NCBI GenBank assembly: GCA_013200995.1
Contig: CP053688.1
Location: 3,286,001 to 3,350,000 of the forward strand
Reading direction: 5' to 3'
DNA: 64,000 nt
Source: Arthrobacter citreus
GTDB lineage: Bacteria; Bacillota; Bacilli; Bacillales; Bacillaceae_G
Both the position numbers and the translations under genes were made by a program. The stretch's first letter is position 1. The number at the start of each line of letters is the position of its first letter. Below are positions 742 through 44,626 of the stretch, one piece after another. The notes under the pieces were generated by a model. It saw nothing but the letters and a program-made list of their open reading frames with translations, was not told where the DNA came from and did no database searches.

Positions 742-852
742 GTTCAGGTTCCCTTTCTGGTTGTTGCAGGGGATTGTTAAAAGCCGTTTTCATGTGGATC
801 ATGCAAAATGTCCCATTGGAACATCTTCATTTACCGTTTTAAAGAGAGGCTC

Positions 853-952
853 TGTTAGATTAAAATGTTGATTTTGGAGCTAACAAAGACTGTCCCATTT
901 AGACAGTCTTAGACATTCCTTAAGCAACTAACGCATCAGTTAGTTGCTTAAG
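853..952 (-). repeat. Cassette repeat, copy 1
   Basis: Follows the stop codon of the nucleotidyltransferase gene. The right arm is a perfect inverted repeat: CTTAAGCAACTAAC at 919-932, loop GCATCA, GTTAGTTGCTTAAG at 939-952. The central hairpin is AAGACTGTC (886-894) with GACAGTCTT (902-910). A weak left arm pairs TGTTAG (853-858) with CTAACA (880-885). Relative to other copies the stem sequence differs but pairing is kept. Confidence 0.75.
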
Positions 953-963
953 AAGCTTACATT

Positions 964-1659
964 TTATTGTTTAAATCCATCGAATAACTGTCCACCTAGT
1001 GGCTCATAGATTTCATTGACTAGTTCAATAAATGGCTGTTTATTTCTAGTTCTAAAATACTCATTTAAAGTGTTGAAATACCTTTCAGACAATGATTCAT
1101 CATATTCCTTAAATGCTCTTACTAAACTTTTCCCACGTCCAGTCCACCGTTTGTTAAAGCGCAGAATAAAATCAGCAACCTGTGTAGAAAGTAAATTAAG
1201 TGTCATCATAGCCTCATCATCATTTTTCGAATCAACAAAATCATCAAGTAAATCATACACAAAATAACGTGATAATCGAATAAATTCAGGCGTTAATGTT
1301 TCTGGACCTACATTTAAATAATCAATTGCAACTTGTTTTACGGAATTAATCGCTGGATGTTCCTTTAAAACAATTCCATCATTGATCATACTGGCTAAAA
1401 CAGGTCGTCCACTTTGTTTTTCTTTGGCAAAACATTCTTTGTAGGATAAATAATTATGTAAAAACGATTCAATTTTCCAATCATATCTTACATAACTTTC
1501 TCTAGTATTAGGACGGTCTTCGTAAAAAACGATGATATCCAAATCGGAACTTTCTGTCGCTAACCCCTTCGATACACTTCCAGCTAATAAAGCAAATTGA
1601 CAATCTCCGTGAAACTCTTCAATAAAACGTTTTGCTGCATCTATTGCTTCTAATTTCAT
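964..1659 (-). CDS. Nucleotidyltransferase-domain protein
   Basis: The 231-aa product carries a polymerase-beta-type nucleotidyltransferase signature near its N terminus: LLAGSVSKGLATESSDLDI, i.e. the G-S-x(n)-SDLD metal-binding pattern at about residues 23-42. The rest is helical and unrecognised. Such proteins transfer NMP groups to antibiotics, proteins or RNA, or serve as MNT-type antitoxins; this one is longer than MNT antitoxins and no HEPN partner is adjacent, so the substrate is unknown. The ATG at 1659 is chosen because GGGGGAT lies 7-8 bases upstream; a TTG at 1674 would place that site inside the gene. It is the last gene (leftmost) in the row of repeat-separated single genes. Confidence 0.8.
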   Translation of the reverse strand: MKLEAIDAAKRFIEEFHGDCQFALLAGSVSKGLATESSDLDIIVFYEDRPNTRESYVRYDWKIESFLHNYLSYKECFAKEKQSGRPVLASMINDGIVLKEHPAINSVKQVAIDYLNVGPETLTPEFIRLSRYFVYDLLDDFVDSKNDDEAMMTLNLLSTQVADFILRFNKRWTGRGKSLVRAFKEYDESLSERYFNTLNEYFRTRNKQPFIELVNEIYEPLGGQLFDGFKQ

Positions 1660-1755
1660 TTCTTTATCCCCCAAAATATCATTACTACTATCACAATCTA
1701 TTAATTATGATTTTAATAAAAATTCGTCGAATTTTATTCTTTTCCTTTTATAATT

Positions 1756-1848
1756 TTGTTCGACTAAACTGCCATTAAGTGACATAAAAAAATCGACTTA
1801 AAAGCCGATCAGGTTGTACAACTAATGCATCAGCTAGTTCAATAAGGA
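1756..1848 (-). repeat. Cassette repeat, copy 2
   Basis: Complete copy after the DUF7660-like gene. Left arm GTTCGACTAAACTGCCATT from 1759. The central stem ATCGACTT/AAGCCGAT (1792-1809) has one mismatch. The right arm AACTA-ATGCATCAGC-TAGTT lies at 1820-1839. Same orientation as all other copies. Confidence 0.75.
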
Positions 1849-1852
1849 TTTT

Positions 1853-2081
1853 TTATTCATAAAACCTACCTGATAAGAGAATTACCGCAAATTCCTTCCA
1901 ACTTGGAATCTGACAATATATCTGTATCTGTCATCCAAGCTTCCATTGCTTCTAAATAAGCCTCAAGAGTTATATTTTCCCATTCTTTGTCATTTGTATC
2001 TATGTCTGACCTTAAGGATTCAACAAACCTTATGAAATCATTTTTTGTTTTTACATTTTCACACTTTTCCCAAATATCCAT
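1853..2081 (-). pseudogene. DUF7660-like protein, frameshifted near C terminus
   Basis: The reading frame from ATG 2081 (GGAG ten bases upstream) encodes MDIWEKCENVKTKNDF and an EWENITLEAYLEAMEAWM segment, which I recognise as the DUF7660 family of small acidic bacterial proteins of unknown function. The frame ends at 1866 after an unrelated tail. Shifting one base gives WKEFAVILLSGRFYE followed by TAA at 1853-1855, which fits the usual family ending (W-K-x-F-A-x-x-L-x-x-x-x-x-Y-E). The shift probably lies near the ATATAT tract at about 1916-1921. It is a recent frameshift mutation, a phase-variable tract, or a sequencing error. Family assignment is from memory of its pattern. Confidence 0.6.
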
Positions 2082-2110
2082 TCTAATTACTCCGATCGCA
2101 TCAAATGTTG

Positions 2111-2142
2111 TATGTAACTAAAGCATCAGTTAGTTAAATAAG
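2111..2142 (-). repeat. Cassette repeat, copy 3 (right arm only)
   Basis: Only the right arm is present: TAACTAA (2115-2121), loop AGCATCAG, TTAGTTA (2130-2136), followed by AATAAGG. The stem base pair T-A replaces the C-G seen in other copies. It starts 30 bp upstream of the DUF7660-like gene, leaving no room for a left arm. Confidence 0.65.
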
Positions 2143-2151
2143 GTTTATTCT

Positions 2152-2490
2152 CTATAAAGTAAGTTCTTCAAACCTACAGCTAGAGAATCTCACTCTATTA
2201 TCGAAAAATATTGTATCTGGAGCATTAGTAGTAGAAATCGCATCCTCACCATACCATTCCCATTTATTGACAAAATTTTTAAGTATTAACTCCGCTTTTG
2301 AAATATTTATTGGACTAACTGTTTCAATATCAAAAACTATTTTATACCAGCCATCAAACTTCCAATACGCTTCTTTTGAGAATAGCTTAAAAGAAGACAT
2401 ATATTTGTCATTTAATTTTAAGTATTCATTCATTATTAATAAAGCCTCTTCTTCGTTGTTACATTCTATAAATAATGTAAGTCTGAGCAT
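2152..2490 (-). CDS. Unknown 112-aa protein
   Basis: I do not recognise this protein. It begins MLRLTLFIECNNEEEALLI and is acidic, soluble, without signal peptide or membrane segment, rich in aromatic residues (Y, F, W) in the middle. The alternating strand-helix look of the first 40 residues resembles small ferredoxin-like folds, but that is only an impression. Start ATG 2490 has GGGAGGA six bases upstream. It is a single-gene unit between two copies of the dispersed repeat. Size and context resemble small immunity or stress proteins; no function can be assigned. Confidence 0.7.
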   Translation of the reverse strand: MLRLTLFIECNNEEEALLIMNEYLKLNDKYMSSFKLFSKEAYWKFDGWYKIVFDIETVSPINISKAELILKNFVNKWEWYGEDAISTTNAPDTIFFDNRVRFSSCRFEELTL

Positions 2491-2555
2491 TTTTCCTCCC
2501 TAAAACCCTTTAGTGATAATTGGATTTAAATATAATTCTACAATACTGCACTTAA

Positions 2556-2648
2556 TCCTTGTTCAACTAAACTGCAATTTACTTTAATAAGAAAAAAGCT
2601 ACCGAAGCAGCTTAAGTTTGTTCAACTATTGCATCAGTTAGTTGAATT
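2556..2648 (-). repeat. Cassette repeat, copy 4
   Basis: Complete copy. Left arm GTTCAACTAAACTGCAATTT from 2561. Central stem AAGCT (2596-2600) with AGCTT (2609-2613). Right arm TTCAACTA (2621-2628), loop containing GCATCAG, TAGTTGAA (2639-2646). It ends four bases before the stop codon of the preceding gene. Confidence 0.8.
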
Positions 2649-2651
2649 AGA

Positions 2652-3161
2652 TTATTCACTATGTATTTCAAAGCAAAAGTAGCCAAATGCAATATCTTCC
2701 TCTCTTAAATTCATTTCTGATTTTGCAATGTCCATCATTTTGGGAAGAATTTCTTTTAAACTATTTTTAAATCTTCCGAGTGCAATTTTATATGAAGTTA
2801 CATCACTGTTTTTGCATAAAGGATATAATATTTCTCCCAATTTGAAATCATTAATTGTTCTTGGTCGAACTACCGATTCCAAGCATTCAGAAATATGCAG
2901 CCTTTGGTCTTTTTCATCAAAGGATTCTCTACATTCTATATAAAACATATATTCTTCGTATTCAATTTGCATATCTAATTGTTCATTAATATAGAATGGC
3001 GTAATTCTTATGTACTCGGTAGTAGAGTTAGAATTTATTATTTCTTCTAAAATACTTTTCAAATCTGTAATGGTCGGAAAATACCTATATTTCCCTTTAT
3101 AGTAAGTGGTATGATTATAGATAATTTCGTTAATTATACTTTTCTTTTTCCTTAGCATCAT
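2652..3161 (-). CDS. Unknown 169-aa protein
   Basis: Not recognised. The protein starts MMLRKKKSIINEIIYNH, is soluble and mixed-charge, and has an acidic middle with several aromatic residues (EYEEYMFYIECRESFDE). There is no signal peptide, membrane segment or obvious catalytic motif. Two adjacent ATGs (3161 and 3158) lie behind a GGGAAG site. Like its neighbours it is monocistronic and closed by its own copy of the repeat. It could be an immunity-type protein, by size and setting only. Confidence 0.7.
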   Translation of the reverse strand: MMLRKKKSIINEIIYNHTTYYKGKYRYFPTITDLKSILEEIINSNSTTEYIRITPFYINEQLDMQIEYEEYMFYIECRESFDEKDQRLHISECLESVVRPRTINDFKLGEILYPLCKNSDVTSYKIALGRFKNSLKEILPKMMDIAKSEMNLREEDIAFGYFCFEIHSE

Positions 3162-3205
3162 TCAACACTTCCCATTAAAATAAGTACTTATTTTTTACCA
3201 TTTCT

Positions 3206-3282
3206 AATTCAACTATCCTGCCATTTACTTGAATAAGAAAACGATCCTCGTTATAGAAGAAACGCATGCGTTAGTTGAATAG
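3206..3282 (-). repeat. Cassette repeat, copy 5
   Basis: Left arm ATTCAA (3207-3212) pairs with TTGAAT (3229-3234) around CCTGCCATTT. Central stem AACGA (3240-3244) with TCGTT (3248-3252). The right arm is partly decayed on its left side but keeps GCATGCGTTAGTTGAAT at 3264-3280. Confidence 0.75.
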
Positions 3283-3285
3283 CGG

Positions 3286-3720
3286 TCATAAGTACCAGGC
3301 ATCTTCTGTGAATTCATTCCATTCCACTTTAAAACTTTTCGCCTTAAGTTTAATACTACAAAAATTATTTGTTTTCCAGTCTGTACCAAACATTTCATAT
3401 ATGAAATGTTCATCAACAGGCTGTTGCTTTACTTCTAAAAATTCCATTTCATTCAGGTCAGTGAGACGGACTTCTTTTTCCTTATCATCATCTAAAAAGA
3501 TTATTGCTTTACTAACTTCAACTTTGTTGAAAGTAAGTCTACACTTATCTGTTGATTTTGCTACTTTATAAGGATTAAGAGGATGTTCATTAGAAATGTA
3601 AATAAACTCAAAATCAATAGTGACAATATCTTTTTCAATCTTTATTTCCTCAACGATACAATCGTGAAAATCCAAGAATTCAAAGTAATCGTTTGTTGTT
3701 TCATATTTCCATGGGTTCAC
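3286..3720 (-). CDS. Unknown 144-aa protein with FHDC motif
   Basis: Not assigned. The N terminus contains YFEFLDFHDCIVEEIKI followed by alternating beta-like stretches (IVTIDFEFIYI). A phe-his-asp start to a beta-sandwich-like region is common in small Bacillus proteins, several of them immunity-related, but I cannot name the family. The start is GTG at 3720, seven bases after AGGTGG; the first in-frame ATG is far downstream. No membrane segment or signal peptide. Single gene followed immediately by the repeat. Confidence 0.7.
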   Translation of the reverse strand: MNPWKYETTNDYFEFLDFHDCIVEEIKIEKDIVTIDFEFIYISNEHPLNPYKVAKSTDKCRLTFNKVEVSKAIIFLDDDKEKEVRLTDLNEMEFLEVKQQPVDEHFIYEMFGTDWKTNNFCSIKLKAKSFKVEWNEFTEDAWYL

Positions 3721-3740
3721 AACCAGCCCACCTTTCTTAC

Positions 3741-3768
3741 CAAACTAAAGCATTAGTTAGTGCAATAA
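3741..3768 (-). repeat. Cassette repeat, copy 6 (right arm only)
   Basis: Right arm only: ACTAA (3744-3748), loop AGCATTAG, TTAGT (3757-3761), then GCAATAAAA. It sits between the small membrane protein gene and the 144-aa protein gene. Confidence 0.6.
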
Positions 3769-3789
3769 AATTTAAATTCCCTACCTGTT

Positions 3790-3975
3790 TTAGCTTGAAA
3801 GTTTATCTACTTCTTTATTATGTTGGAACACACCCCAAAGTAATACGATTGATATGATAAAATCAGTAACTTCAAAAGAATGAAACAAAAAAAGTATGAG
3901 TTGCAATAATATCGCAGTTAATATAATTAAATAAATGTTAATTTTCTTTGGGTATATTTCAGCACTTTTTTTCAA
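3790..3975 (-). CDS. Small two-helix membrane protein
   Basis: A 61-aa product with a short basic N terminus (KKSAEIYPKK), two hydrophobic segments at about residues 13-31 and 36-50, and a charged C-terminal tail (HNKEVDKLSS). It should be a small inner-membrane protein. The start is TTG at 3975, supported by GGAGGGG seven bases upstream. Function unknown. Another single-gene unit followed by a shortened copy of the repeat. Confidence 0.6.
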   Translation of the reverse strand: MKKSAEIYPKKINIYLIILTAILLQLILFLFHSFEVTDFIISIVLLWGVFQHNKEVDKLSS

Positions 3976-4023
3976 TAATTCCCCCTCCTAATTCCAGTAT
4001 ATTTCTCTTTATTTGTTAAATTT

Positions 4024-4125
4024 CCTTCTTCAATTAATCTGCCATTTTGTTCAATAAAAAAGGATCGACAAAATCGTCGATCACGTTTCACTTTATACAA
4101 CTAATGCATTAGTTAGTTGTATAAC
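4024..4125 (-). repeat. Cassette repeat, copy 7
   Basis: Best-formed copy. Central stem GATCGAC (4063-4069) with GTCGATC (4076-4082), perfect. Right arm TATACAACTAA (4094-4104), loop TGCATTAG, TTAGTTGTATA (4113-4123), perfect 11-bp stem in which TTC/GAA of other copies is replaced by ATA/TAT with pairing kept. The left arm contains CTGCCATTTTGTT. Confidence 0.8.
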
Positions 4126-4137
4126 TCTTCACTGTTT

Positions 4138-4587
4138 TTACATATTTAAACAATGTGTAGAATTAAGAAATCTATTTTCTTTTGAAAATCCAAGGGAAGT
4201 ATAAAATTTATCAGCTTGTTCTGTATTAGTATGAAGCACTAAAACTTTATAATACTTTTTTGCTTCGTTAATTATCCTTTTTAACAACAGGCTTCCAATA
4301 CCGTTTCTCCTATACTCTTTACTAACATAAAACCTTCTAAGTCTACCGATATATTGTTTATTCGAAAAAGGGTCTTTATTTAATCCACCAACGGCAACTA
4401 ATTCACCTTTTTCATTAAAAACACCAAATAAAACCTCGCCTAAATTGTTAAAAGTATTAGTACCATTTTTATAATCATTTACTAATCTTTCTACCATACG
4501 AAAACCCTCATCTTTGCTTTCCTTCACTAAAAATGTTAAATCAACATATAACAAATTTTTTATTTGTTTTACTTCTAACTCTTCCAT
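4138..4587 (-). CDS. GNAT-family N-acetyltransferase
   Basis: The protein is a GNAT acetyltransferase that would transfer acetyl from acetyl-CoA to an amine. It shows the order of conserved parts: a beta strand VLFGVFNEKGELVAVGGL, then RRFYVSKEYRRNGIGSLLL, which is the acetyl-CoA pyrophosphate loop (R/Q-x-x-G-x-G/A), and the C-terminal VLHTN...ADKFYTSLGF. The chosen start is ATG 4587 (149 aa) because GGAGG lies five bases upstream; an open frame to 4770 runs back through the preceding repeat and is not coding. The substrate is unknown. Monocistronic. Confidence 0.85.
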   Translation of the reverse strand: MEELEVKQIKNLLYVDLTFLVKESKDEGFRMVERLVNDYKNGTNTFNNLGEVLFGVFNEKGELVAVGGLNKDPFSNKQYIGRLRRFYVSKEYRRNGIGSLLLKRIINEAKKYYKVLVLHTNTEQADKFYTSLGFSKENRFLNSTHCLNM

Positions 4588-4643
4588 ATCTTCCTCCATC
4601 ATACTTGATTTGATATTAAGTTTTTCTCGTAAACCTATTAAAA

Positions 4644-4738
4644 TCCTTCTTCCACTAAACTGCCATTTTGTTGAATAAAAAAAGCCGCATATAAGCAGCT
4701 CGTGTTCTTCAACTATTGCATGCGTTAGTTGAATAAGG
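4644..4738 (-). repeat. Cassette repeat, copy 8
   Basis: Complete. Left arm TTCCACTAAACTGCCATTTT from 4650 ending GTTGAATAA. Central stem AGCCGC/GCAGCT (4683-4700) with one mismatch. Right arm TTCAACTA (4708-4715), loop with GCATGCGT, TAGTTGAA (4726-4733), then TAAGG. Confidence 0.8.
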
Positions 4739-4780
4739 AAATTCAGTTTATTTCTATTTTTAAATTGCAACTTTGTTCAC

Positions 4781-4835
4781 CCACTCTGTACGACGCTTCG
4801 TTCTTTACACGCGGACGAGTGCAGTGAGGAGCGCG
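4781..4835. repeat. GC-rich flank repeat, left of lipoprotein gene
   Basis: CCACTCTGT at 4781-4789, then CACGCGGACGA from 4808 and GAGGAGCGCG at 4826-4835, closely resembles the sequence at 5419-5462 on the other side of the lipoprotein gene (CCACTCTGT, CACGGGCGGACGA, AAGGAGCACG). The two copies form an imperfect direct repeat bracketing that gene and are much richer in G+C than the surroundings. Confidence 0.5.
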
Positions 4836-4836
4836 T

Positions 4837-5355
4837 TTATTTCGCGGCCATGGCCTTTGCGAAATCTTCGTCGTTGTAGCGGACGTGTACGATCTTATGA
4901 TCGTCATTGACGTTAAATCGTCCAGTTACCTCAATTGTCTGGTCATCCTTGCCGCTCTTTTTGGCAACAAATGTGACGGTATAATCATACGCGCCTTTTT
5001 CGCCTTTCACCGCATTCACTTTCGCATCCTTGTATGCTAAGGTGAACCCGTTTTTGTGCGCTTCAAATGTGAAGCGAAGTGCATACGCCGAAACAAACGA
5101 TTCGAACGATGCATCCGTGAAATACTTCTTGAACTCTTTATTCGTGTAGGCTTCGATACCAGCAGGCGGATTCGGTGATTCAAGTGCCTTCTTCAAATCA
5201 GCATCTGGACCGGTCACCTGTTTTTCTAACACCGTTTTGATCATCGCAATGTTCGGATCAACCTGTTTCTTTTTCGATGTGTTACCTGATGTACAACCTG
5301 CTAAAGCTAATATGCCAACTAACAAGATACTCAGTAAAATTCGACTTTTTTTCAT
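4837..5355 (-). CDS. Secreted lipoprotein, GC-rich, unknown
   Basis: The 172-aa product starts MKKSRILLSILLVGILALAGC, a type II signal peptide with lipobox LAGC, so it should be lipid-anchored outside the membrane. The mature part (about 150 residues) alternates charged helices and strands (TFEAHKNGFTLAYKDAKVNA) and has the look of an NTF2-like or cystatin-like fold, which I cannot confirm. Start ATG 5355 follows AAGGGAGAGAG; an upstream frame to 5472 is not supported. Its codons use much more G and C than every neighbour, and similar GC-rich direct repeats flank it, which points to transfer from another genus. Confidence 0.75.
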   Translation of the reverse strand: MKKSRILLSILLVGILALAGCTSGNTSKKKQVDPNIAMIKTVLEKQVTGPDADLKKALESPNPPAGIEAYTNKEFKKYFTDASFESFVSAYALRFTFEAHKNGFTLAYKDAKVNAVKGEKGAYDYTVTFVAKKSGKDDQTIEVTGRFNVNDDHKIVHVRYNDEDFAKAMAAK

Positions 5356-5418
5356 CGCTATACTCTCTCCCTTCGCTATGCTCGCTCGCTCCGCTCTTCG
5401 TTTCATTCCTTCGTCATT

Positions 5419-5462
5419 CCACTCTGTTTTCACGGGCGGACGAAGCGAAGCAAGGAGCACGT
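5419..5462. repeat. GC-rich flank repeat, right of lipoprotein gene
   Basis: Partner of 4781-4835. It lies within a GC-rich patch (about 5360-5470) containing clustered CGCTCGCTCCGC and CGGACGAAGCGAAGC words that can pair with each other, typical of small palindromic intergenic elements. Confidence 0.5.
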
Positions 5463-5561
5463 CGAGGAGCACTTTCCAATATTTTCTAGTTACTTATAGT
5501 ATTCGTCCTTTTGCTCATTAATCCCTTCTTCGCTACACTCGGCACATAGGATTTTAGATAA

Positions 5562-5646
5562 TCCTTATTCCACTAAACTGCCATTATGTTGAATAAGATA
5601 AAGCGATCTTCTATTGAAGTATCTCAATACGTTAGTTCTATAGGCA
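5562..5646 (-). repeat. Cassette repeat, copy 9
   Basis: Left arm intact: ATTCCACTAAACTGCCATTA from 5567, ending GTTGAATAAG. Central stem GATCTTC / GAAG-T-ATC (about 5605-5623). The right arm is decayed but keeps ACGTTAGTTC at 5629-5638. It lies after the stop of the small membrane protein gene at 5708. Confidence 0.65.
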
Positions 5647-5707
5647 TGTTTTAATTCAATGTGATTAAATTTATGTTATATGAAAATGTTTTGTAAACTG
5701 GATATGA

Positions 5708-5977
5708 TTAATCACCAAAGATTGCCCAAAGTCCAAAAGAAAAAATTTCTAATAGATAGGGGAAAATGTAGGGGAAGCTGACAAATAAAATAAATAAAGA
5801 AATTGCAGTTCGTTTTTTCCCGATTACTATGAACCAAATAATGAACCCCAAATAGACAAAGGAATGGAGAAAATAGATATAAAAAAAGCGAGTGAATATT
5901 TCAATAAAAGATCCTATCCCAATTCCAGCCCAAATGCTTCCTTTACCCTTTTCCTTAACTTTTTTCATTCGGTTCAT
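5708..5977 (-). CDS. Small membrane protein (89 aa)
   Basis: Basic N terminus (MNRMKKVKEKGKG) followed by two to three hydrophobic segments at about residues 15-33, 36-52 and 57-85, ending AIFGD. An integral membrane protein of unknown function. The start is uncertain: ATG 5977 has TGGGGG about 11 bases upstream, and ATG 5968 gives an 86-aa form beginning MKKVKEKGKG. Single-gene unit followed by repeat copy 9. Confidence 0.6.
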   Translation of the reverse strand: MNRMKKVKEKGKGSIWAGIGIGSFIEIFTRFFYIYFLHSFVYLGFIIWFIVIGKKRTAISLFILFVSFPYIFPYLLEIFSFGLWAIFGD

Positions 5978-6149
5978 TCACATCATAACCCCCAACGAAA
6001 TAGTTTGAGTCTCACTTTCAAACTGATGGTATTAAACACTATATGTAGGGGTGAATTGTTTAGACTATTAGCCAACTAAAACAACTCCTCAGCAATTATG
6101 AGTTTTTTTCTAATGTTTTCTGTTACTCTCTCTTCTTTTCATGTTTATT

Positions 6150-6232
6150 AATAAACTAAAACTGTCATTTAGTCTAAAAAAAACACCAAAGTAGTCAATT
6201 GTTGAGCTAAGGCATCAGTTAGTTACATAAGA
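6150..6232 (-). repeat. Cassette repeat, copy 10 (outermost)
   Basis: The rightmost and most diverged copy. Left arm AAACTAAAACTGTCATTTAGTCT at 6153-6175. The right arm keeps GCTAAGGCATCAGTTAGTTA at 6206-6225, then CATAAG. No further copy is seen to the right in this window. Confidence 0.65.
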
Positions 6233-6245
6233 ACTTTTACATTTA

Positions 6246-6335
6246 TTAATTTAAAATAACCTCTAAACCATCTTGCAAATGATAAAAAGTATTAAATAAA
6301 AGGTAGCATATTTTATGATTTTCCCCTTTGTCCAT
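6246..6335 (-). CDS. Possible remnant gene at outer end of array
   Basis: A 29-codon frame (MDKGENHKICYLLF...) runs from ATG 6335 to TAA 6246 and stops 14 bases before repeat copy 10, the same position that every other gene holds relative to its repeat. There is no good ribosome binding site and the peptide is not recognisable. It may be the 3' end of a decayed tenth gene or chance. Confidence 0.25.
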   Translation of the reverse strand: MDKGENHKICYLLFNTFYHLQDGLEVILN

Positions 6336-6358
6336 TCGTTATTTTTATAACAAAAAGA

Positions 6359-6384
6359 ACCTCACAACGAATGTTGTAAGGTTT
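6359..6384 (-). terminator. Terminator of ger operon
   Basis: Stem ACCTCACAAC / GTTGTAAGGT around GAAT; on the minus strand it is followed by TTCTTTTTGTT. It lies 50 bp after the stop of the GerC-like gene. Confidence 0.7.
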
Positions 6385-6434
6385 TGTTCTTCATGTGCGA
6401 TTTGTTTGGTATCCAGATTACCAGATAAGGAAAT

Positions 6435-7553
6435 TTACATTCGATCAACATTTAAGATGTGAACCTTGAAATGTGGCTTGATGTTCATTTTAGGATAGTC
6501 CTTTTCCCAATTTAATTTCCGCCAAATTTTTGGGTGAAACGCCTTAATCCTTTCACCTACCCCAACCAAATCACAATTCGCTTTTTGCATGATTTGAATG
6601 GTCTCCAAAGCCTCTTTTTCTAACTGTTTACCCAATATTTTTTCGATTTTATTCACATATTTTGCATCAAGTTGGTGATATGCTTTTCCTAAATCGATTG
6701 CATTGATGTCGATATTAACATTGAGTTTAACTTTTGGTGGTCTTTTTGATTGTGGTATTACACGTAACGTTGAAGTTCCTTTTTTTAATGAAAAGCTATA
6801 ACTATGATAAGCGTTCTTTTCCTCACTAACTTTCTCTAATTTACCACTATATCGTTGTCTTCCTTTTTCTCTCCCATTTAGTAACATCGTCATACGCAAT
6901 TGTTCTTTATTGAGTTCTACATCTGTATTTTTCCCATGGCTAAATAATAGAGCACCATCTAATTCTGTACCTTGCTCTTTTTGCTTCACAACAGGAATCG
7001 CAAGGTTTGTTAATTCGTCTTCTTTTGATTGCAATAATTGCATCATCGTCACACTAGGAATGATACTATTCTTATCTAACGCCTTGTTAAAGGTAACTAA
7101 ATTCCCTGCGAACTTTCCATTCTCTTTCGGAGCTGTCTGTAAAAATGTTGCTAAGTCGCCCTTGAATAGAATAACCGGTGTGTTAATCGACGAATACGGT
7201 GCATGTAGTAAAAAATTAAGTTTCGAAATGGGATCGTTTTTCATAAACGATTCACTCATCAAGTAAATGCCCGTGCTGATCCCTAAAAAAGGAGCTTGAT
7301 CGATATACTCCCCTTGACCAATTGCTTCAACAAGACTAGGTCCTTTTAAGACAACCGTCTCAGAAACTGGTTCACCTGAACCTAGACCGGTACTTTTTAT
7401 GTTGGTGATGACATAATGTAATTCTACTTCACGATTCATTTCATTCCAATCGGCTCCTGCTATTTCGACAAATTGTAAATTTCTTAACGGTAAGCGATCC
7501 CAACAACCTGTTAAAAGCGGCAACAACAAAAGTAAAATGGCAACTTTCCTCAT
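6435..7553 (-). CDS. Germinant receptor lipoprotein, GerC family
   Basis: Ger(x)C-type subunit of a spore germinant receptor, anchored in the spore inner membrane. The N terminus MRKVAILLLLLPLLTGCWDR is a lipoprotein signal with Cys at residue 17, and the C-W-D-R start of the mature protein is typical of the family. The length of 372 aa is normal. Start ATG 7553 overlaps the stop of the GerB-like gene by four bases (ATGA), so translation is coupled. It is the last gene of the A-B-C operon. Such operons are transcribed in the forespore. Which germinant is sensed cannot be told from sequence. Confidence 0.92.
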   Translation of the reverse strand: MRKVAILLLLLPLLTGCWDRLPLRNLQFVEIAGADWNEMNREVELHYVITNIKSTGLGSGEPVSETVVLKGPSLVEAIGQGEYIDQAPFLGISTGIYLMSESFMKNDPISKLNFLLHAPYSSINTPVILFKGDLATFLQTAPKENGKFAGNLVTFNKALDKNSIIPSVTMMQLLQSKEDELTNLAIPVVKQKEQGTELDGALLFSHGKNTDVELNKEQLRMTMLLNGREKGRQRYSGKLEKVSEEKNAYHSYSFSLKKGTSTLRVIPQSKRPPKVKLNVNIDINAIDLGKAYHQLDAKYVNKIEKILGKQLEKEALETIQIMQKANCDLVGVGERIKAFHPKIWRKLNWEKDYPKMNIKPHFKVHILNVDRM

Positions 7554-30354: not shown

Positions 30355-31395
<1,041 letters not shown>

Positions 31396-44509: not shown

Positions 44510-44626
44510 AAGAAAGACGCCTGCCGCAGCAGACGTCTTGATGCGTTTGAGGCGAGAGACCGGGCGGCCACATCCGCGCGTTTAGCTTGCGCATATCTCT
44601 CGTCTTACTCAAATTAGCTCATCGCA
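44510..44626 (-). ncRNA. Candidate structured small RNA
   Basis: A GC-rich island in AT-rich DNA, transcribed leftward if real. Closing stem TTTGAG/CTCAAA (44546-44551, 44608-44613) is extended by CGAGAGA/TCTCTCG (44553-44559, 44596-44602), enclosing a GC-rich region able to form GCGC-type substems; a terminator hairpin AAGACG-CTGC / GCAG-CGTCTT (44514-44539) followed on the minus strand by TTCTTTTTG ends it. TATATT at 44638-44633 is placed right for a -10 element; no -35 is evident. I cannot match it to a known RNA family. It might also be a leader of the following gene. Confidence 0.5.

Follow-up and report, generated by a model that had tools for sequence, protein, structure and literature searches.

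A probable integron-like gene-cassette system of Bacillales with short sites and a Xer-like recombinase

Ten copies of a structured repeat, all on the minus strand, lie near the left end of a 64-kb window (C1:3286001-3350000) of the genome deposited as Arthrobacter citreus (G000, 5.47 Mb). With the genes between them they very probably form a nine-cassette stretch, without a recombinase gene of its own, of an integron-like system of Bacillales in which arrays of genes and short sites would be swapped by a Xer-like recombinase; the probability of this reading is put at about 0.88. It is carried by the arrays, their polarity, the junctions inside sites, an attI-like site and the co-occurrence of repeats with the recombinase gene, all of which were established by comparison of genome sequences. 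In the proposed mechanism, a cassette would be one gene with a site of ~32 nt at each end. The Xer-like tyrosine recombinase, which is encoded in other arrays (on replicon C2 in this genome), would cut and rejoin DNA at the sites, presumably via the spacer/TTAGTT region of like sites, and genes and terminator modules would be gained, lost and reordered by site recombination.

The initial annotation of the window had proposed a gene-cassette array with gene plus repeat as the moving unit, and had named a terminator repeat of the bcr type as the alternative. The array reading appears right in substance, given the junctions inside the site, the shared polarity and the recombinase in other arrays, which a bcr-type repeat leaves unexplained. 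The moving unit had to be refined to a gene between two ~32-nt sites, as the middle module usually stays behind.

Sites, arrays and junctions

Alignment of 37 full copies gave, on the gene strand, CTTATTCAACTAACTGATGC-N-TTAGTTGAACAA, a variable centre that is often a hairpin with a T run, and TTATTCAACAAAATGGCAG-T-TTAGTTGAATAAGG. Parts A, on the left, and B', on the right, repeat the same site of ~32 nt in direct orientation; the site has 12-nt inverted arms (TTATTCAACTAA / TTAGTTGAATAA) and a spacer of ~8 nt. A repeat of ~95 nt had been perceived because two sites commonly enclose a short module that is often terminator-like. The spacing of sites is bimodal, ~55-65 nt with a centre between them and 250-1500 nt with a gene between them. 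The single-site profile yielded 1392 matches of at least 10 bits in 80 array loci (1.45 Mb) versus 2 in reversed sequence. RNAalifold found no consensus pair in the 37 full copies, and the covariance model R1 is therefore sequence-only.

A scan of the window's own genome, one of the checks proposed with the initial annotation, placed the copies mostly in one-strand clusters, with some single. The half-site pattern occurs at 23 plus-strand and 27 minus-strand places, versus 0 for the backward-read pattern, and its clusters lie at C1:597-623k (-), 759-796k (+), 2.99 Mb (+), 3.10 Mb (-), 3.29 Mb (-, the window) and 5.20 Mb (+), and at C2:129-183k (-). Loci L022-L026 of the G000 chromosome hold single copies or short groups outside dense arrays. 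Among the 149 genomes searched, this one included, R1 matched in 105. The genus is Gottfriedia (Bacillaceae), with members named Gottfriedia acidiceleris and G. solisilvae, and each of its 12 other genomes has at least 25 matches. Such arrays occur in soil-dwelling relatives of Bacillus. In G001, 64 merged copies were counted within 40 kb, with 42 of 43 strand-clear sites on the plus strand. In the 71 array loci that hold full copies, 262 of 276 neighbours no more than 3 kb apart are on the same strand. Strong sites enclose 253 intervals of 250-1800 nt; the longest open reading frame runs along the sites in 210 of these and against them in 28, while 15 are without an open reading frame of at least 50 residues. 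As in integrons, the cassettes are mostly single-gene and in one orientation.

The cassette proteins, of which 100 of 210 were scanned, are diverse and fall into 61 Pfam families, most with one member; SUKH, GNAT, NUDIX and alpha/beta hydrolase are the commonest. Defence genes are not prominent, as three PADLOC families were matched by 3, 2 and 1 of the 100 proteins. Group II introns (Rfam group-II-D1D4-6) start directly after an A site at L015:812-1048 (-), L019:12390-12626 (-), L070:1969-2205 (-) and L067:11915-12151 (+). Integrons have group IIC-attC introns, comparable to these.

The initial annotation had asked for junctions at one fixed point in the repeat, and comparison of the 3' ends of homologous genes gave such a point on average. 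After removal of windows identical over their full length, all 37 pairs lose homology inside the site or at its end: likeness runs through AACTAACNNATGC, and mean identity reaches background at the next base, one after ATGC. A larger, non-independent set has the same break, with 270 of 282 pairs one-sided, and so do 25 pairs from other genera, which were chosen as one-sided and in which the site reads AACTAACGGGTGC. At the 5' ends, 25 pairs break in or beside the upstream site, two of them not at real sites. Homologous downstream genes keep homology from about GAATAAGG; the upstream spacer class is also conserved, and the preceding centre is not. A first histogram of the ends of high-scoring segment pairs was uninformative because the sites themselves align, and a permissive site pattern (1583 candidates) gave an unsharp junction profile, so that 490 scored sites were used instead.

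The lipoprotein unit of the window (4717-5570, minus strand) provides an example in its 854 bp of 100% identity to C1:2989323-2990176 (L018:9324-10177), ~300 kb off. Both ends of the unit lie within sites, with GAATAAGG... at one end and ...AACTAACGCATGCA at the other, and the flanks of the two copies are unrelated. Centres behave differently from genes. Pairs with the same upstream gene have a common centre in 1 of 9 cases, and pairs with the same downstream gene in 3 of 22, compared with 2.6% of random pairs; the downstream set is 27 pairs minus five overlapping matches of one place that were found among the eight pairs listed. Because of these low counts, a cassette that carries its own terminator was rejected. 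Exchange is read as occurring between like sites, and genes and centres would therefore shuffle as separate modules; we infer that the spacer is the shared region of exchange.

Comparison of the window locus between relatives was likewise proposed with the initial annotation. In G012, the same genes stand on both sides, 737 bp apart with no site between them; G007 and G011 have the right-hand genes and no site in 20 kb; G009 has sites, one of them close to a broken copy of gerC. Species therefore either have the array as a whole block or lack it. Its absence from G012, G007 and G011 fits the expected gain or loss, and the G012 intergenic sequence is too diverged for a clean empty site.

The array-borne recombinase and the alternatives

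A recombinase gene near other arrays, which the initial annotation had suggested looking for, was found. The C2 array of G000 encodes a tyrosine recombinase of 292 residues and an array of G004 a 93% identical one; both genes are antisense to the cassettes, with a right-half site just upstream of the start. This family was chosen for its presence in arrays of several genomes together with an attI-like site, and other tyrosine recombinases were set aside; the XerC- and XerD-type genes of G000 are separate loci. In the alignment of 16 family members, R151, K175, H241, H267 and Y276 are invariant and R244 differs in one; these six we take to be the catalytic residues. K175 and H241 are separated by 66 residues, a spacing presumably close to that of XerD and shorter than that of IntI.

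The recombinase is Xer-like, not IntI. It scores 213.8 bits with the XerA model (cut-off 220), 203.5 with XerD and 200.6 with XerC, versus 93.1 bits with the integron-integrase model TIGR02249 (cut-off 265). The nearest solved sequences are Xer proteins, and a structure model of moderate confidence (predicted local distance difference test score 78, predicted template modelling score 0.55) has XerA as its closest solved fold, with IntI4 lower. A protein database search gave 2607 proteins at E <= 1e-40; the best 120 of the 2607 were listed, and further Xer proteins may be among the remainder.

When one genome per species was scanned with a pattern, 421 stretches were found to encode a relative of the recombinase, and the best of these matches constitute 79 named loci, mostly with names of Bacillaceae and Planococcaceae. 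Using a site profile trained on seeds from those same loci, sites were found in 77 of the 79, 661 in all, of which 634 run antisense to the recombinase gene. At 47 of the 79 loci a site lies within 250 bp upstream of the gene; all 50 such sites are antisense and 44 of them lie 29-73 bp from the aligned start, with 0 matches in the reversed control. A TTATTGNC block, a motif picked by eye, is present near the recombinase start in 64 of 71 loci tested versus 26 of 272 control windows. The attI-like site shares just the right part of the repeat; as judged from these alignments, it would correspond to the attI of integrons in lying next to the recombinase gene and being joined to the first cassette. 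At E <= 1e-45, the recombinase gene was found in 21 of 30 relatives with at least ten repeats versus 21 of 118 others (p 9e-8).

Several observations weigh against exchange of cassettes by this enzyme. The window's own array holds no recombinase gene, nine of the 30 repeat-rich relatives, including G006, G010 and G015, have none at E <= 1e-45, several recombinase copies are broken, and for some of the 42 positive relatives the only matches are distant ones (33-44%). In the clade of G046, G083 and G116 (L184, L186 and L187) the sites lie 3' of the recombinase gene and are oriented like it. In or near arrays of G000 there are two additional tyrosine recombinase genes (C2:124990-125523 and C1:592720-593238). 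The single-site profile, which is nearly palindromic, gives the same strand in just 156 of 201 neighbours. The junction pairs lack independence, with two cassette families supplying 16 of the 37, and single pairs are alike up to ~12 nt past ATGC because the right arm is conserved. Centres rarely move with the gene, unlike the prediction of a single-crossover integron model. A folded single-strand site is unsupported, because the weak arm-arm covariation within cassettes seen at one position of an initial set (6 of 2000 shuffles) was gone on 267 cassettes and was withdrawn.

The relatives that have many repeats and no array recombinase gene would be explained if host XerC/XerD, in the manner of p-dif modules, or another tyrosine recombinase acted on the sites and the array-borne enzyme were a passenger; G000 has XerC- and XerD-type genes and the two additional tyrosine recombinase genes just mentioned. 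This is unlikely in view of the co-occurrence of the array recombinase with the repeats, its usual orientation and its conserved attI-like block, and the arms are unlike the Bacillus subtilis dif site. A true chromosomal integron of the IntI type, with attC sites that fold, a single crossover at the R' box and cassettes that carry their own attC, would produce arrays with one gene per cassette and an attI-like site next to a tyrosine recombinase that is usually divergent, and the right arm of the site does resemble GTTRRRY. Such an integron is disfavoured and very unlikely: the integrase model scores far below its cut-off while the best Xer models reach 200-214 bits, the nearest fold in the moderate-confidence model is XerA rather than IntI4, the sites have neither a consensus structure nor covariation, and the centre stays behind when the upstream gene travels. 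Homology is lost before the centre in 37 of 37 pairs, which is not the R' crossover, with the centre accompanying the upstream gene, that is expected of attC.

A dispersed palindromic terminator repeat of bcr or REP (repetitive extragenic palindromic) type that inserts after genes, with exchange by ordinary homologous recombination, accounts for copies placed 3' of genes and for the terminator-like hairpin in four of the seven two-site copies of the window; the copies could also act as short homologies, and single copies outside dense arrays occur. It is nevertheless very unlikely. Such repeats would be scattered as single copies in both orientations without a link to one gene, and apart from some single copies this is not the pattern found: polarity is shared in long arrays, as in the 262 of 276 neighbours above, breakpoints average to one position instead of being spread over a 30-nt homology, and a recombinase gene has a conserved site close to its start.

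The probable nine-cassette stretch in the window

Within the integron-like system favoured here, the window contributes a short array with all features on the minus strand. The full-copy profile recovered the ten same-orientation copies where the initial annotation had placed them, seven as composites of two sites and three as single sites; the description as one structured repeat therefore holds in that two ~32-nt sites usually surround a short module, and fails for those three. That the rest of the 64-kb window has no copy was borne out for full copies (best match to the full-copy profile, E 0.61), and the single-site profile gave one weak match there, at 30897-30912 (10.2 bits, E 0.04). The rule of one small gene per copy applies to nine copies. 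The tenth, a composite (6155-6232, 30.7 bits) that marks the 5' edge of the array, instead comes ~200 bp behind a germination gene of gerC type (6435-7553, stop at 6435).

Reading from this edge, cassette 1 encodes a membrane-like protein of 89 residues (5708-5977) and is followed by a composite of a degenerate site A, a short centre and site B' (5562-5644, 33.5 bits). Cassette 2 is the lipoprotein-like gene (4837-5472), within the 854-bp unit described above, and the composite after it is the best-scoring copy (4644-4739, 83.4 bits), with a terminator-like hairpin at 4682-4701 between sites A and B'. The same arrangement recurs after cassette 3, a GNAT acetyltransferase (4138-4602; PF00583, PF13508), in the composite at 4023-4125 (64.9 bits; hairpin 4063-4082). 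Cassette 4 encodes a small membrane-like protein of 61 residues (3790-3975) and precedes a single site (3728-3769, 14.2 bits), and cassette 5 encodes an unknown protein of 144 residues (3286-3720) and precedes a composite with a short centre between sites A and B' (3202-3281, 50.9 bits). Cassettes 6 (2652-3161, 169 residues) and 7 (2152-2490, 112 residues) also encode unknown proteins; the former is followed by a composite with a hairpin at 2596-2613 between A and B' (2556-2651, 69.6 bits) and the latter by a single site (2107-2143, 21.4 bits). Cassette 8 encodes a DUF7660 protein of 71 residues (1866-2081; PF24693) and is followed by the composite at 1755-1847 (66.5 bits), in which the hairpin (1791-1810) again separates A from B'. 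Cassette 9 encodes a nucleotidyltransferase-domain protein of 236 residues (964-1674; PF01909), and a single site of ~35 nt, CTTAAGCAACTAACTGATGCGTTAGTTGCTTAAGG, marks the 3' edge of the array (917-953, 23.7 bits with the full-copy profile).

The genes are unrelated, as had been claimed: apart from the nucleotidyltransferase, DUF7660 and GNAT matches, Pfam gave a sub-threshold DUF7926 match alone for the lipoprotein-like gene and none for the other five. The lipoprotein-like gene is also the composition outlier noticed at the outset, with 45.9% GC versus 25.3-32.9% in the other eight. The distance from stop codon to repeat, given as 4-70 bp, is in fact 97 bp in the case of the lipoprotein gene and 0-63 bp for the other eight. 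A terminator scan marked the centre in four of the seven composites and found 8 terminator-like sites in 850-6400 versus 1.7 in shuffles; there was no enrichment of promoter-like sites in the array (19 versus 24.5 in shuffles). Elsewhere in the window, Rfam matched the small RNA BsrF at 44516-44625 on the minus strand (108 bits).

dfrK of staphylococci and comparison with known systems

The gene dfrK confers trimethoprim resistance in livestock staphylococci, including S. aureus. A site from another genus matches plasmids at the dfrK 3' end, in 8 Staphylococcus and 2 Mammaliicoccus records of 24 matched. In pKKS627 (NC_014156.1; L288), dfrK lies between same-strand sites at 938-972 and 1501-1536 (31.3 and 36.9 bits), one ~45 bp before its start and the other at its stop. 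A mazG gene follows dfrK on pKKS627, with further weaker site matches, so that the pair looks like captured cassettes. Among ten dfrK homologues looked at, those of L291 and L293 (85% identical, in the window's order) lie between sites in arrays, and those of L294 (82%) and L296 (75%) have weaker site matches; the other six, L292 (85%) among them, have no site at threshold, and the reversed control gave none. The accessible part of a review describes dfrK on these plasmids and makes no mention there of a source outside staphylococci (PMC6157413). It seems that dfrK of staphylococci derives from Bacillales-type cassette arrays, which provides a concrete hypothesis for its origin.

A wider proposition is fairly probable: that a second, independently evolved integron is spread across Bacillaceae and Planococcaceae, with a Xer-derived enzyme, its own attI, sites of ~32 nt and separate shuffling of genes and terminators, and that staphylococci have received resistance genes such as dfrK from it. 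Across Bacillales, an integron-like job appears to be done by another enzyme and another site. If true, this would imply a large accessory-gene pool in Gram-positive bacteria, a new pair of recombinase and site, and an instance in which convergent evolution of cassette capture can be tested. A literature search, with preprints and most subscription papers outside its coverage, found no report of such a system. The accessible text on IntegronFinder 2.0 describes integrons in Firmicutes as very occasional, with one complete integron (Limnochorda pilosa) and a few clusters of attC sites lacking integrases (CALIN) (PMC9024848).

Among other known systems, Xer/dif and the p-dif modules of Acinetobacter plasmids have short inverted-arm sites with a 6-8-bp spacer, a Xer-type enzyme and genes flanked by sites. 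The Bacillales system resembles them in its short inverted-arm sites, Xer-type enzyme and site-flanked genes, and differs in the array-borne enzyme with its own attI-like site, the mostly uniform orientation and the dozens of cassettes per region. The bcr elements of the Bacillus cereus group are likewise structured repeats in Bacillaceae; by description, they are not known to have the one gene per copy, the exchange junctions and the recombinase found here. The motif OTH-22-1, a probable new attC-like structured DNA with RYYYAAC at its 5' end that occurs in several phyla according to the part of its report available (PMC8632094), can be likened to the Bacillales sites by description alone.

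The closest comparison is with integrons themselves (IntI/attI/attC, including superintegrons and CALIN). Shared with these are the single-gene cassettes in one orientation, the usually antisense recombinase gene with an attI-like site next to it, the likely carriage of a resistance gene and group II introns in sites. In contrast, the Bacillales system has a Xer-like enzyme, sequence-conserved sites of ~32 nt without covariation, and separate exchange of gene and centre. An additional domain specific to IntI is named as defining for the integron integrase in the portion of PMC9668308 available, and the array recombinase, at 93.1 bits against the integrase cut-off of 265, is not an integrase of that kind. 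Because neither IntI nor attC in this sense is present, the system is not classed as an integron; to judge from its sequences, it would be integron-like in its working and not an integron by its parts.

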